Assembly: GCF_000970025.1 (NCBI RefSeq)
Contig: NZ_CP009528.1
Location: 2,591,168-2,655,167, forward strand
Source of the DNA: Methanosarcina barkeri MS
Lineage (GTDB): Archaea > Halobacteriota > Methanosarcinia > Methanosarcinales > Methanosarcinaceae
Length of the DNA: 64,000 bases
Reading direction: 5' to 3'
The translations under genes were made by a program, and so were the position numbers. This document shows, piece after piece, positions 4,463 through 11,244 of the stretch. The number at the start of each line of letters is the position of its first letter. The first letter of the stretch is position 1. The notes beneath the pieces are model-generated. The model saw only the letters and a program-made list of their open reading frames with translations, searched no databases and was not told where the DNA came from.

Positions 4463-4922
4463 GATGGTCAATTTGTATCTGATTGATGTTATATATTTGA
4501 AAATCATATATTTAACTAACCAAGGCAATGTTGTTGGAAATGGAACTTACATAAGTCGTAGAGAAAAAACAAGAAGATATCTTTGCCGCCATTGCGGTAA
4601 AGTATTCAATGATTATACAGGTACCTTTTATCACGATCTTCGTAAAGATGCGCAAACTATTGATTTAGCTCTGAAAATGTCTATGAAAGGAATGAGCATT
4701 GAAGCCATTGCCGATGTTTTAGAGGTAGAATCTGCTAGTGTAAAGCGATGGTTAGCTCGTGCAGCTGAGCAATGCGATAAAGTAAATGACAGTATGATGA
4801 AAGATCTGAATGTACCCAAGATAGAAATGGACGAACAAAACGTATGTGAGTTTCTGGAAAAAATAGTGGAAGAAAGCAAAACCAAGAACATAGGACGACT
4901 CTTGGTTTGCAAAATAGTTTGA
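4463..4922 (+). pseudogene. IS1-like transposase remnant, copy 1 (both ends lost)
   Basis: This is the N-terminal half of the same transposase found at 10104-11244. It opens with the element's end sequence (gatggtcaatttgtatctg, 4463-4481), but compared with copy 2 about 75 bases are missing after the end, which removes the true start codon and the first zinc-ribbon half (CPNKNC in copy 2). What remains is the second half CRHCG, a helix-turn-helix (MSIEAIADVLEVESASVKRWL) and the stretch up to EESKTKNIGR. It stops at TGA 4920-4922, before the catalytic core. The Met at 4464 lies inside the terminal repeat and is an artefact. It is a non-functional relic. Confidence 0.8.
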
Positions 4923-5268: not shown

Positions 5269-6012
5269 TTACTTCTTCCTGCACTTCCCCACTCCATAAA
5301 GACAGATCAAGCCTCCCAATAAACTAAAGCCTGGAGTAGAGTTCTCTTTGCTAGAGTCATTTTCACTTGAGCTATTTATGTTTGAAATATTTCCATTATT
5401 GGGTTCAGAATCATTATTTGAATTATTTAGTCTTCCTGTATTTTTTTCTCCAGATATAGGCAAATTTGGTGTTTCAGTAGCAACAGTTGGCACAGGATTA
5501 TCTTCATACACGAATACCACAGGGACTTCCTTAAGCCCCATCTGGCTTGCTTTTGAGTCAAAGATCTTATATATTTCGTCCATAAAAGGCTTTTCAACTT
5601 TCTCACTCTTGTTGATCCCTACCTTTAGAACGCCATCAATGGTTACACCACATCCTGTTACGGGACCATTTGGATAGGAATACCTTGACATTTCATGGTC
5701 AAAATTTGCATTGATTTCTTCCATTATTTTGCTAAGAGTATCAATCCATTGGTCTCTCTCTTCCGAACTTCCAAATGCGGGTATACTTCCATAAGCAGCG
5801 ATAAAATCTGGACCACTTTTCAGTTTATCAAGAGTTTCCGGACCAAAGGTAAGTGGTAAACGTTGTGGAGTGTTATCTGCATTCTCAGAATTATTATTAC
5901 TTGAATTTTCCATAATGCCATCTCCGTTTTGGGAACAAGAACCTGAAACACAGTTCCCTATAATATTTACTAAAACAACACATAATAGAACATATGATAT
6001 TTTTAAGCCCAT
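5269..6012 (-). CDS. surface-anchored protein: protease-prodomain-like module with PGF-CTERM tail
   Basis: A 247-residue exported protein. Residues 1-25 form a signal sequence, with a Cys at 26 (SGSC) that is only a weak lipobox. Residues about 53-175 align with the N-terminal prodomain of the neighbouring protease (6175-7287): both have FGP(E/G)TLD, FIAA-GSIPAF, EER-QW, YPNG, TIDGVLKV and PVVFVY. There is no protease domain after it; instead an Asn/Ser/Glu-rich linker leads to TPGFSLLGG, a hydrophobic helix and KCRKK, the layout of a PGF-CTERM archaeosortase signal. So it is a free prodomain displayed on the cell surface. In bacterial S1 proteases such prodomains act as folding chaperones and tight inhibitors, so this could fold, hold or inhibit the neighbouring enzyme. 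That role is inferred. Same strand as the protease, 162 bp downstream of it. Confidence 0.75.
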   Translation of the reverse strand: MGLKISYVLLCVVLVNIIGNCVSGSCSQNGDGIMENSSNNNSENADNTPQRLPLTFGPETLDKLKSGPDFIAAYGSIPAFGSSEERDQWIDTLSKIMEEINANFDHEMSRYSYPNGPVTGCGVTIDGVLKVGINKSEKVEKPFMDEIYKIFDSKASQMGLKEVPVVFVYEDNPVPTVATETPNLPISGEKNTGRLNNSNNDSEPNNGNISNINSSSENDSSKENSTPGFSLLGGLICLYGVGKCRKK

Positions 6013-6174
6013 GTAGCCTCCTCTTAATTCAATATTTCTTTGAATATGACTAGACTTTATTAAAAATAAAGGAATAGTTAGTATGGCTCAACTTTGAATA
6101 ATGCATAATATGTTATTATGTTGCATCTTTTTTTCAAAAATGAACTGTACTAACAAAATTTTCTAATTGCACGT

Positions 6175-7287
6175 TTATGTTTTAAGAGGATATACACCTA
6201 AATCGTTGTGTATCCCAGAAACTGGAGAAAATATCGAAGTCGAGTAGCCATTTGAAGAATGTGTTCCCACTCCTCCCCAGTGGATTCCCACAATCTTAGC
6301 ACCGGTACCACTTAAAATATATACAGGAGAACCGCTATCTCCACCGTCGCACCTATATGCTGCAATACATTGATTATATAAAGTTCGTCCAACACCGGAA
6401 TTGTACCTGTATGTTCCTGTCTCAGTAACATATCCATTTGTTCTTCCTGTTGCTATACCCGATTTAAAAACCATGTCTCCTACCGCGGGATCTCCATATG
6501 ATACTACATTTCTTGTATGATCAGTATCATAATCATATATCACTGGTCTAACATTAGAACAAGGAACCCATGAAGCGTCTGCACGAGTGTTGCTATATTT
6601 GGCTACTCTTCCTACTAAATTGGCACTCGATGCAGTGGGTTGATATACACTACTCCCAATAAATGGTGCAGCATGCTCAACAATAACAAAACCTTTAGTT
6701 CCACTATCGGTCCTTGCAGCGAAACCAAGAGTTGACGTCACGGAACCACCATTACCATCTGAAACTATTTTTATGCCTCCAATTAAGGGCCTCCATGAGC
6801 TAGTACGACTGGTTGGTACAGGAAAATCTCCATATACAAATACTACTGGAGTATCTTTTACTCCAATTTCTTGTCCATATTTAGAAAATAGATTATAGAT
6901 TTCATTTTCTTTGGTTTTATCCAGTTCTTGTCCTTTTTCGATTACAACCTTAAGAACGCCATCAATAGTATAACCATAAGCTATAACAGAACCATTTGGA
7001 TAGAAATACTTTGATATTTTCTTATCATAATTTTCATTAGCTTTAGTATATGTTTTGTTAAGCTTATCAAGCCACTGTTGCCTCTCTTCCAAAGTTTCGA
7101 AAGCTGGTATACTTCCATGTGCAGCAATAAAATTCGTATCCTTTTTCAGTTCATCAAGAGTTCCTGGACCAAAGGAAAGCTCCTTTTTAGTCGCATTTTC
7201 TTGTGCACTTGCAGCTGGTATTAACGCAATACTAGCTAGTAGCATTACTAATAAAAATATGCCTGTTCTACTTTTATTACACTTCAT
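6175..7287 (-). CDS. secreted trypsin-fold (S1) serine protease with prodomain
   Basis: A 370-residue preproprotein. Residues 1-28 are a signal peptide ending ASA; residues about 35-155 form a prodomain shared with the gene at 5269-6012; residues about 168-370 are the protease. The catalytic triad can be read as His205 (VIVEHA), Asp237 (RADASW) and Ser318 (GDSGSP), followed by IVGIHWGG, the usual strand after the serine loop. This organisation matches the streptogrisin/alpha-lytic group of S1 peptidases. There is no membrane anchor, so the enzyme should be released or loosely wall-bound. Natural substrate unknown. It lies upstream of the prodomain-only gene on the same strand. The leader contains a strong hairpin (7381-7423). 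Confidence 0.88.
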   Translation of the reverse strand: MKCNKSRTGIFLLVMLLASIALIPAASAQENATKKELSFGPGTLDELKKDTNFIAAHGSIPAFETLEERQQWLDKLNKTYTKANENYDKKISKYFYPNGSVIAYGYTIDGVLKVVIEKGQELDKTKENEIYNLFSKYGQEIGVKDTPVVFVYGDFPVPTSRTSSWRPLIGGIKIVSDGNGGSVTSTLGFAARTDSGTKGFVIVEHAAPFIGSSVYQPTASSANLVGRVAKYSNTRADASWVPCSNVRPVIYDYDTDHTRNVVSYGDPAVGDMVFKSGIATGRTNGYVTETGTYRYNSGVGRTLYNQCIAAYRCDGGDSGSPVYILSGTGAKIVGIHWGGVGTHSSNGYSTSIFSPVSGIHNDLGVYPLKT

Positions 7288-7772: not shown

Positions 7773-7782
7773 AATTGAAATA

Positions 7783-9235
7783 CATGCGTCATCGGTTAAG
7801 CATTAAATTCCCTCTCTTGTATGTGTTTTTTATATTAGTAATATAAATATCTCTGTATCTATGTCTCCTTGTCCCCCACTTACTCTTGAAGACTCTCTTC
7901 GGGAAATGTTTCCCGAAGAGTGGTTAAGGCAAACTGCCAAAGAAACTGGTCTTATAGTACGTGAACGTAAAATTGACCCTGTCATTATCTTTTGGGTTTT
8001 AACTCTCAGTTTTGGTGTACGCTTACAGCGTACACTTGCCAGTTTGAAACGCGAATATGAAACTGAGTCACAAAAAACCATAAGCGATAGCAGCTGGTAC
8101 TATCGTTTCACTCCAGAACTTGTTGAGTTTCTTCACCAGTGTGTAATTCATGGCATGGGAGAGCTTGCAAAAGAACCTGGTAGGAAACTTAGCAAGAAAC
8201 TCGAAACCTTCCAAGATGTTGTCATTCAGGACAGCACAATTGTTCGTCTCCATTCCTCGTTAGCAGACAAGTTTCCTGCAGCAAGATCAAGAACAGTAGC
8301 TGCAGGAGTAAAAGTTGGAGTTATGGTAAGTGCAGTTGCTAACGGACCTAGAACCGTTGCTCTGTACTCTGAAAAAACAGCTGAAATAAAGACATTAAAA
8401 ATAGGTCCCTGGATCAAAGACCGTATTCTCCTTGTTGATCTTGGTTTCTACAAAACTCAAATGTTTGCAAGAGTTGAAGAAAATGGGGGATATTTTGTCT
8501 CAAGGATTAGGAAGAATATAGACCCTATTCTTGTTTCTATTGAAGAGGGACTTTCTAAGACAAAAAGCAAAGAGTTCGCTGGAAAACCTGTTAGTGAATG
8601 TATTAAGCAACTTTCTGGAAAAGATATTGATGCAGTTGTAAAAATAGAATTCAAAAGAAGAGAGTATAAAGGCAAGCAAAAACAGGACGAGATAAATGTA
8701 CGTCTTGTTGCCGTATATAACGATGAGGATGAAAAATACCACATTTACATCACAAATATTCAGAAAGATATTTTGAATGCAAAAGACATTGCAAACTTAT
8801 ATGAGGCAAGATGGGACATAGAACTGTTGTTTAAGGAATTGAAAAGCAAATACTCGCTGGACGTTCTTGAAACAAAGAATGTGCAGGTAATTGAAGCTCT
8901 AATCTGGACAGCAATATTGACACTAATCGTTAGCAGAAGAATATATTCTCTTGTAAGAAAATCAACAACTCATCCTGAAAAAATGGCTAGATATACGCAG
9001 TTACGTTGGAGTACAATATTTGCAGAGAATGCATCAGATTTATTGACAGTAATTCTGCATAGATGTGGAATTCAAAGAACTTTTGAAACGATAATGAGCG
9101 TATATGAAAGTCAAGCATTAGATCCTCATGTAAACAGAGAAAGGTTTAGAGATGAATGGTTTGAGTAATAAATGAAAAATTGGATTCAAAAAGAGTAACA
9201 GAAGAAGGAAATAAATCCTTAACCGATGACCAATG
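7783..9235 (+). mobile_element. complete IS4-type insertion sequence
   Basis: The element is 1453 bp and flanked by a perfect 10-bp direct repeat, aattgaaata (7773-7782 and 9236-9245), read as the target-site duplication. Its ends are imperfect 18-bp inverted repeats: catgcgtcatcggttaag at 7783-7800, and cttaaccgatgaccaatg at 9218-9235 (16 of 18 matching). It holds one uninterrupted transposase gene. Intact ends, gene and target duplication point to a recent and probably still active insertion. Confidence 0.88.
7861..9168 (+). CDS. IS4-family transposase
   Basis: A 435-residue DDE transposase. The catalytic residues are visible: D124 in IQDST, D193 in LLVDLGFY and E321 in the family signature YEARWDIELLFKELK, which fits Y-x2-R-x3-E-x6-K. 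The last part of the protein is the usual basic C-terminal region. The start is ATG 7861, with no strong ribosome site, as is common for transposases. It is complete and fills the element at 7783-9235, so it should cut and paste this element through its 18-bp ends. It is on the plus strand between minus-strand host genes. Confidence 0.92.
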   Translation: MSPCPPLTLEDSLREMFPEEWLRQTAKETGLIVRERKIDPVIIFWVLTLSFGVRLQRTLASLKREYETESQKTISDSSWYYRFTPELVEFLHQCVIHGMGELAKEPGRKLSKKLETFQDVVIQDSTIVRLHSSLADKFPAARSRTVAAGVKVGVMVSAVANGPRTVALYSEKTAEIKTLKIGPWIKDRILLVDLGFYKTQMFARVEENGGYFVSRIRKNIDPILVSIEEGLSKTKSKEFAGKPVSECIKQLSGKDIDAVVKIEFKRREYKGKQKQDEINVRLVAVYNDEDEKYHIYITNIQKDILNAKDIANLYEARWDIELLFKELKSKYSLDVLETKNVQVIEALIWTAILTLIVSRRIYSLVRKSTTHPEKMARYTQLRWSTIFAENASDLLTVILHRCGIQRTFETIMSVYESQALDPHVNRERFRDEWFE

Positions 9236-9382
9236 AATTGAAATATAAAAATATTAGATTTGTCGTTTTGTTGAAGTTTACGGGCTGTATCTCGCCATTG
9301 AAATGAAGGAGGTTTAGCTCTTCTTTTTTCCAAAAATACCGAACTTGCAGATGAAAAATTTTCTGCAATTAAATTTAATATT

Positions 9383-10103: not shown

Positions 10104-11244
10104 TTATCCGATTGATGTTTTAAAACACCTGAATGTCAGCAATTCCTTTAAGGTCCATATTGATTCCACAATTCCTGCCTCTCTTGCAGGTGTATTTTTG
10201 CATTCAACTCCTCTTTCATCCTTGTACCCTAATCCTCCATGACCTCTACAGAAGTTAAAGTGGGTACAATATAACCTCATTTGATACTCTAACCATTCTT
10301 TGGCTTTTGAACCTTAGTTCCCATATTTTAAGCGCATATTAAGCATTATTACAGATATACGCCCTCACGTGATGCCGATTTTGAAATTCAATCAAATAAA
10401 GTATGTGCTTATAGTTTAAGCGCATAATACAACATCGGAGAGCCTTTATGCGCCTAAAAATGCGGAACGTAGGTTTGAAAATCCTATTGTTTTTCTTGAA
10501 ACTCTGTTGTTATCCTGCCTAAAAGTCAGGTTTTGTCTTTCAATTAAAGTTGTTGAGATTTCGCTTTGCTCAATGTCTTTTCCAAAAATAGTCTTCTTCT
10601 CAACTTTCTTAAGTATTCCATTTATTCTTATTTTGACTACCTGTGCATACTTCAAATCATCAGGGGGAAAGATTTTTGGTTTCCTTGGTCTTCCTCTTTT
10701 CCCAGTTCTTGGAAACTCAATCAAAACTCCAAAATGTTTCAAAAGAGCTTCTCTATAAAAGTTCAACCCATCTGTGACAAAAAGAGGGATTTTATCAGAA
10801 AGATGTTTTTTAACTGACTCAACTAACTTATCCGCAACATATTGTTTTCTTGGTCCTATTACAAAGTCAAGTATTAGCCTACAACTTGGTGCAAAAATTT
10901 ACTTTATCGCATTGGTTAGCTGCACGAGCTAACCATCGTTTTACACTGGCAGATTCTACCTCTAAAACATCGGCAGTGGCTTCAATGCTCATACCTTTCA
11001 TAGACATTTTTAAAGCTAAATCAATAGTTTTCTCAGCTTTCCGAAGATTATGATAAAAAGTGTCTGTATGGTCGTTGAATACTTTGCCACACTGGTGACA
11101 AACAGATCTTCTTGTTTTTTCTCCACGACTTATGTAAGTTCCATTTCCAACAACATTGCCCTGGTTAGTAAGACCATAGAGTTTGCAGTTTTTGTTCGGA
11201 CAAGCAACGTCAATGAATCGTGGTTTTGGACCTCGTTTTCCCAT
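10104..11244 (-). pseudogene. IS1-like transposase, internally deleted and interrupted by a MITE
   Basis: Read on the minus strand: ATG 11244, a zinc ribbon (CPNKNC ... CHQCG), an HTH (VESASVKRWL), then the frame is lost after NQCDKVN, where a stretch present in copy 1 is missing. A second frame resumes at RLILDFVIGPRKQYVADKL, passes FVTDGLNFYREAL (catalytic Asp context) and RQDNNRVSRKTIGFS, and is cut by the MITE at 10312-10473. After it the protein continues as KAKEWLEYQMRLYCTHFNF to CFKTSIG and TAA (10104-10106). Zinc ribbon, HTH, catalytic core and RKTIGFS fit IS1-like transposases. Not functional. Confidence 0.8.
10312..10473. repeat. 162-bp MITE with 27-bp inverted ends and 6-bp target duplication
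   Basis: The ends are ccttagttcccatatttt... (10312 on) and, inverted, cctacgttccgcattttt... (from 10473 back); about 20 of 27 positions match and both run into gcgcata. It is flanked by tttgaa at 10306-10311 and 10474-10479. Removing the element plus one tttgaa joins ...GFS to KAKEW... in frame in the transposase around it, which confirms both boundaries. Non-coding. Confidence 0.82.

Follow-up and report, generated by a model that had tools for sequence, protein, structure and literature searches.

In the archaeon Methanosarcina barkeri MS, a gene directly downstream of a predicted secreted serine protease encodes a free copy of the protease's prodomain, fitted with a putative membrane anchor and devoid of a protease domain. 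Judging from sequence evidence, we lean, with slightly better than even confidence, towards a role of this protein, P0001, as a membrane-tethered, trans-acting prodomain that would bind the secreted protease, P0002, acting mainly as a surface inhibitor and secondarily as a foldase or holder. Both genes lie within the window, that is, the whole stretch of 64,000 nucleotides that was analysed, and their features are as follows.

6175..7287, minus strand: P0002, predicted precursor of a secreted alpha-lytic-type (S1E-like) serine protease, 370 aa, without anchor
7204..7287, minus strand: P0002 signal peptide, residues 1-28, assigned by eye from sequence
6808..7188, minus strand: P0002 cis prodomain, residues 34-160 (boundary approximate), from BLASTP and profiles
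6178..6792, minus strand: P0002 mature protease domain, residues 166-370, triad H205/D237/S318
6013..6174, minus strand: gap of 162 bp between the P0002 and P0001 genes
5269..6012, minus strand: P0001, free prodomain protein, 247 aa, without protease domain
5941..6012, minus strand: P0001 signal sequence, assigned by eye from sequence
5485..5862, minus strand: P0001 free prodomain, residues 51-176, predicted beta-alpha-beta-beta-alpha-beta
5338..5484, minus strand: P0001 Asn/Ser-rich linker, from sequence
5272..5337, minus strand: P0001 C-terminal PGF-type anchor (PGF, hydrophobic stretch, RKK), from sequence

The initial annotation had proposed that the P0001 gene matches only the prodomain of the adjacent protease. 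Gene order adds that it lies downstream of its neighbour and has the same orientation. BLASTP bore the proposal out: residues 42-190 of P0001 align with residues 25-173 of P0002, with 48% of 149 aligned residues identical (E 8e-45), and the similarity, essentially confined to the prodomain, ends about at the start of the mature enzyme. As a prodomain homologue without a protease domain, P0001 has the makeup of a stand-alone propeptide-like protein, and its prodomain was modelled in the arrangement listed above with a pLDDT of 92 and a pTM of 0.85. That the same domain is cut exactly at the pro/mature boundary supports an inhibitory role. The gene was also said to carry its own PGF-CTERM anchor, which its sequence supports. 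P0001 does end in PGF, a hydrophobic stretch and a basic end, and the genome encodes archaeosortase A (ArtA, match of 261 bits), which processes PGF-CTERM proteins, so that P0001 has the features of an archaeosortase A substrate; however, an NCBIfam search at E 1, where HMMER filters readily discard short models, left the PGF-CTERM model unreported and gave only a weak match to MAST_ArtA_sort.

The assignment of the adjacent gene to the S1 proteases held, and could be narrowed to the alpha-lytic type. P0002 consists of a signal peptide, a prodomain and, from R166, a mature domain of alpha-lytic/streptogrisin type, the prodomain lying directly N-terminal of the mature N-terminus, as in S1E. Also as in S1E, the Ser/His/Asp triad occurs in order together with a GDSG motif, and H205, D237 and S318 are invariant in 41 relatives. 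Profile comparisons with the alpha-lytic protease/streptogrisin group gave E values from 1e-14 to 1e-10, and the model of the mature domain superposed on alpha-lytic protease, aligned from its first mature residue, with Z 26.5 and an rmsd of 2.1 over 187 residues. By triad, profile and fold, P0002 is thus a predicted protease with a mature domain of this group. The next fold relative after the alpha-lytic proteases is NARROW LEAF 1, a plant protease, with Z about 18.

Comparison with M. spelaei (G027) gave a dN/dS of 0.25 for the free gene and 0.58 for the protease gene, synonymous changes in the cis prodomain alone being too few for a dN/dS reading. The free gene is under purifying selection, as its value indicates, and this adds to the case for an inhibitor.

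The surroundings of the pair bear traces of mobile elements. An insertion sequence at 7783-9235 of the window, with a DDE transposase at 7861-9168, is situated upstream of the protease gene, about 0.5 kb from its start. The 10-bp direct repeat AATTGAAATA (7773-7782 and 9236-9245) flanks this element, which M. spelaei lacks at the orthologous site. The region is also flanked by a pair of much alike helix-turn-helix ORFs (4464-4922 and 10879-11244), by appearance fragments of a different family of transposons.

The prodomain returned no family match in Pfam and NCBIfam; 39 prodomains left the Pfam model Pro_Al_protease unmatched at E 0.1, and no sequence link to solved structures was found. By fold, the top match of the free domain among solved chains was 4pro_C, the alpha-lytic pro region (Z 5.1, rmsd 2.7 over 75 residues), which lends weak support to an inhibitory role, the score being low and tied with unrelated chains. 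Lower matches were 3pro_C and 4hlb (Z 4.4), again with low Z and tied with unrelated folds. Alpha-lytic protease (3pro, 4pro) therefore resembles P0002 in its mature fold and in having a prodomain directly before the mature enzyme, whereas its pro region is a weak fold match without detectable sequence similarity to the prodomain described here, and is encoded in cis only, not both in cis and as a free copy. The bacterial protein behind 4hlb (DESPIG_01740, from Desulfovibrio piger) is a solved structure titled alpha-lytic protease prodomain-like; no paper naming it was found in the literature searched.

Gene order identifies the protease and the free prodomain as a conserved cassette. The M. 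barkeri MS genome has three such proteases, each directly followed downstream by a free-prodomain gene, and five further prodomain-only genes. Among 30 Methanosarcina genomes, a protease match was found in 13 and a prodomain match in 26, and every genome with the former also has the latter, which supports the proposed function. A single-protein scan of the named genomes gave matches only in M. spelaei and Methanosarcina sp. UBA289. In the order as a whole, the protease occurs in 41 of 185 genomes; its loci, parsed with iterated profiles, yielded 58 protease ORFs, and at 47 of these a same-strand prodomain-only gene lies immediately downstream. We estimate the chance of such pairing at well under 1%, given a 4.5-Mb genome with about ten of these genes, and the pair is kept across genera. 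Of the 11 ORFs without a downstream partner, one runs into a contig end and two are instead preceded by the free gene. At many loci the free gene encodes a tandem double prodomain. At one locus (L139, G125:C35:15000-34000) a 19-kb stretch contains four tandem pairs of protease and free prodomain.

Further families of the phylum have the pair too: of about ten protease loci examined there, four had a downstream free prodomain. These free proteins have no PGF tail and, by eye, mostly carry an N-terminal hydrophobic segment, which is C-terminal in two; retention at the membrane thus seems to have come about repeatedly and in different ways. Both this recurrence and the pairing itself, in the order and in the further families, speak for a surface inhibitor. 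A relation between anchor type and the presence of ArtA was ruled out, as each of the 26 genomes tested gave an ArtA match, including those whose free prodomains are without a PGF tail (one match fell below the curated cut-off).

Phylogenetic analysis places the window's cis clade (support 100/96) and free clade (90/89) as sisters within one clade (100/99), and four further loci show the free domain as sister to the cis domain of its own protease (L131, 100/100; L146, 100/99; L232, 100/96; L231, 99/98). Well-supported branches force at least ten changes between the cis and free states, which implies that the free form was born repeatedly, or that copies were homogenised by gene conversion; either history, with the neighbour's prodomain as source, supports the inhibitor reading. 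Free and cis domains of one locus resemble each other more than they do after shuffling across all loci. Strict partner-specific matching was dropped, however, since the own partner was best in only 8 of 18 cases within single genomes (permutation 125/5000), and this counts against inhibition of the cognate protease.

Exchange between the two copies has also removed the enzyme. At L105 (Methanosarcina sp. UBA289, G012) and L106 (G003) the protease domain is lost and an anchored prodomain gene survives, in which the promoter region, signal peptide and early prodomain of the protease gene are joined to the remaining free prodomain and anchor. In L105 the identity switches from 98% with the cis copy to 96-100% with the free copy, a switch that is less sharp in L106. 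As read from these junctions, recombination between cis and free copies deleted the protease in both genomes, and no protease match was found elsewhere in either. A broken, decayed or deleted protease stands beside an intact partner at 12 loci (L090, L095, L100, L103, L105, L106, the first pair of L139, L145, L150, L153, L155 and L231), and the reverse is seen at two (L093 and L130). The one-sided binomial probability of this asymmetry is about 0.006, for a tally made by eye after the fact in which some draft-genome frameshifts may be errors. It runs in the direction that a cost of losing the free copy in the presence of active enzyme would produce, and to this extent it supports an inhibitor.

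Two loci of genome G163 lack the cis prodomain altogether. In both, an anchored free-prodomain gene precedes a protease gene whose product passes straight from signal peptide to mature enzyme; within its genus, the arrangement was found in G163 only, and its two free proteins share 48% identity. L161 is clean, with a ribosome-binding site, a TTG start, the signal and then ..WSTFRPAIGG, and L156 has a frameshift inside the signal peptide. For these enzymes the prodomain, if needed at all, must come in trans from the membrane-anchored protein, which makes folding in trans plausible and is also consistent with an anchored partner that binds the enzyme. By eye, dockerin-like Asp-rich repeats occur in C-terminal extensions of the proteases of L161, of L136 (G156) and, in part, of L156; these extensions suggest a further means of attaching an enzyme to a surface complex.

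Among intramolecular chaperones, the prodomain of alpha-lytic-type proteases is the textbook case, and such prodomains cover the active site when bound. Based on domain identity, anchoring signals, cassette conservation and recombination products, a scheme can be proposed that predicts binding, inhibition, localisation and a benefit to the producer. By its sequence, P0002 is exported as prodomain plus mature enzyme, without anchor; its cis prodomain would fold the protease and then be removed by cleavage near residues 165/166. Once released, the enzyme may rebind to the anchored free copy, which would cover the active-site face as a prodomain does, thereby inhibiting it at the surface and shielding the producer's membrane and S-layer zone. 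Secondarily, the free copy may fold or hold the enzyme where a cis prodomain is absent. The initial annotation had suggested a surface-held chaperone or immunity-type inhibitor; pairing, anchoring, loss pattern and the G163 loci fit this suggestion, but free copies persist without a protease, as in G003 and G012, so immunity to the own protease cannot explain everything. Intact proteases without an adjacent partner (L092, L097 and three in G115) also count against inhibition, as do fusions of the free prodomain to other modules in the M. barkeri MS genome, namely to HEAT-like repeats and a PGL anchor (L036 2832-4100) and, as a doubled prodomain with a PGF anchor, to a long N-terminal extension (L037 1736-3493).

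Such fusions are what would be expected of a general surface module with a ligand of its own, for example peptides or an S-layer protein, from which the protease merely borrows its domain and whose free forms do not act on the protease. The excess of free copies over proteases in Methanosarcina and their persistence after protease loss fit this as well, yet downstream pairing at 47 of 58 ORFs, the repeated births beside proteases and the trans-only loci would go unexplained, and we regard it as unlikely. A marginally better chance, still low, is given to a membrane-anchored foldase, with the free prodomain as a steric chaperone in trans, comparable to the lipase-specific foldases (Lif), and inhibition as a side effect. 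Membrane-based steric chaperones are known (PMC3352829), and the G163 proteases, with the anchored gene directly upstream, are the case in point; a foldase would nonetheless be redundant at nearly all other loci, where the partner protease carries its own prodomain, which makes the extra copy more likely a surface inhibitor than a second foldase, and the persistence of free copies without protease would again be left without a reason.

That the protease has no anchor and its partner has one could also mean that P0001 is a tether, keeping active protease unblocked near the cell surface for local nutrient release. We consider this improbable, since a prodomain bound over the active site would inhibit what it tethers, and direct anchoring of the enzyme would be simpler. 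Least probable is that the protease gene was duplicated and that its truncated copy is decaying, in spite of the missing enzyme domain and of the recombination that still joins cis and free copies: signal, domain and anchor are intact, the dN/dS is low, and the gene is kept across genera, doubled in many and retained after protease loss. Simple truncation is moreover ruled out by the orthologues and paralogues found, none of which carries a protease domain, G003 and G012 showing the reverse.

Returning to the surface inhibitor, we know of no stand-alone propeptide inhibitor for alpha-lytic-type proteases or in archaea, and a literature search of partial coverage found no paper on such an inhibitor or on such a gene pair. 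Stand-alone propeptide inhibitors are established for subtilases (PMC6993865), and the precedent of SUB1-ProM, a subtilisin propeptide-like protein of Plasmodium and a potent inhibitor, supports our interpretation (PMC6993865). Like P0001, SUB1-ProM is a prodomain without protease domain, and its gene neighbours those of the proteases and points the same way; unlike the predicted inhibitor P0001, it has the subtilase (S8/I9) fold, belongs to a eukaryote, is soluble in the parasitophorous vacuole instead of membrane-anchored, and has had its inhibition measured (PMC6993865). The lipase-specific foldases, membrane-based steric chaperones encoded apart from the exported enzyme, resemble the trans-only loci of G163 (PMC3352829). 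Their target, a lipase, is unrelated, and in the present system, with its putative foldase role, the enzyme has its own prodomain at nearly all loci; an arrangement in which a separate gene would supply the folding domain is seen at L161 but not in the window, as P0002 has its own.

Free copies are common in genomes without such a protease, and some may thus be directed at foreign proteases or have other functions. It is tempting to speculate, although we hold it to be rather doubtful, that methanogens use alpha-lytic-type proteases in close-range competition, with the anchored prodomains as matching immunity and the protease-less keepers holding orphan immunity against neighbours. The natural experiments described here (cis plus trans, trans only, and trans without protease) bear on whether the folding and inhibiting roles of a prodomain can separate, and they involve a domain that gave no match in Pfam or NCBIfam and occurs in many methanogens. 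If our interpretation is true, this would be, to our knowledge, the first case of an alpha-lytic-type prodomain encoded again as a membrane-anchored, trans-acting protein.
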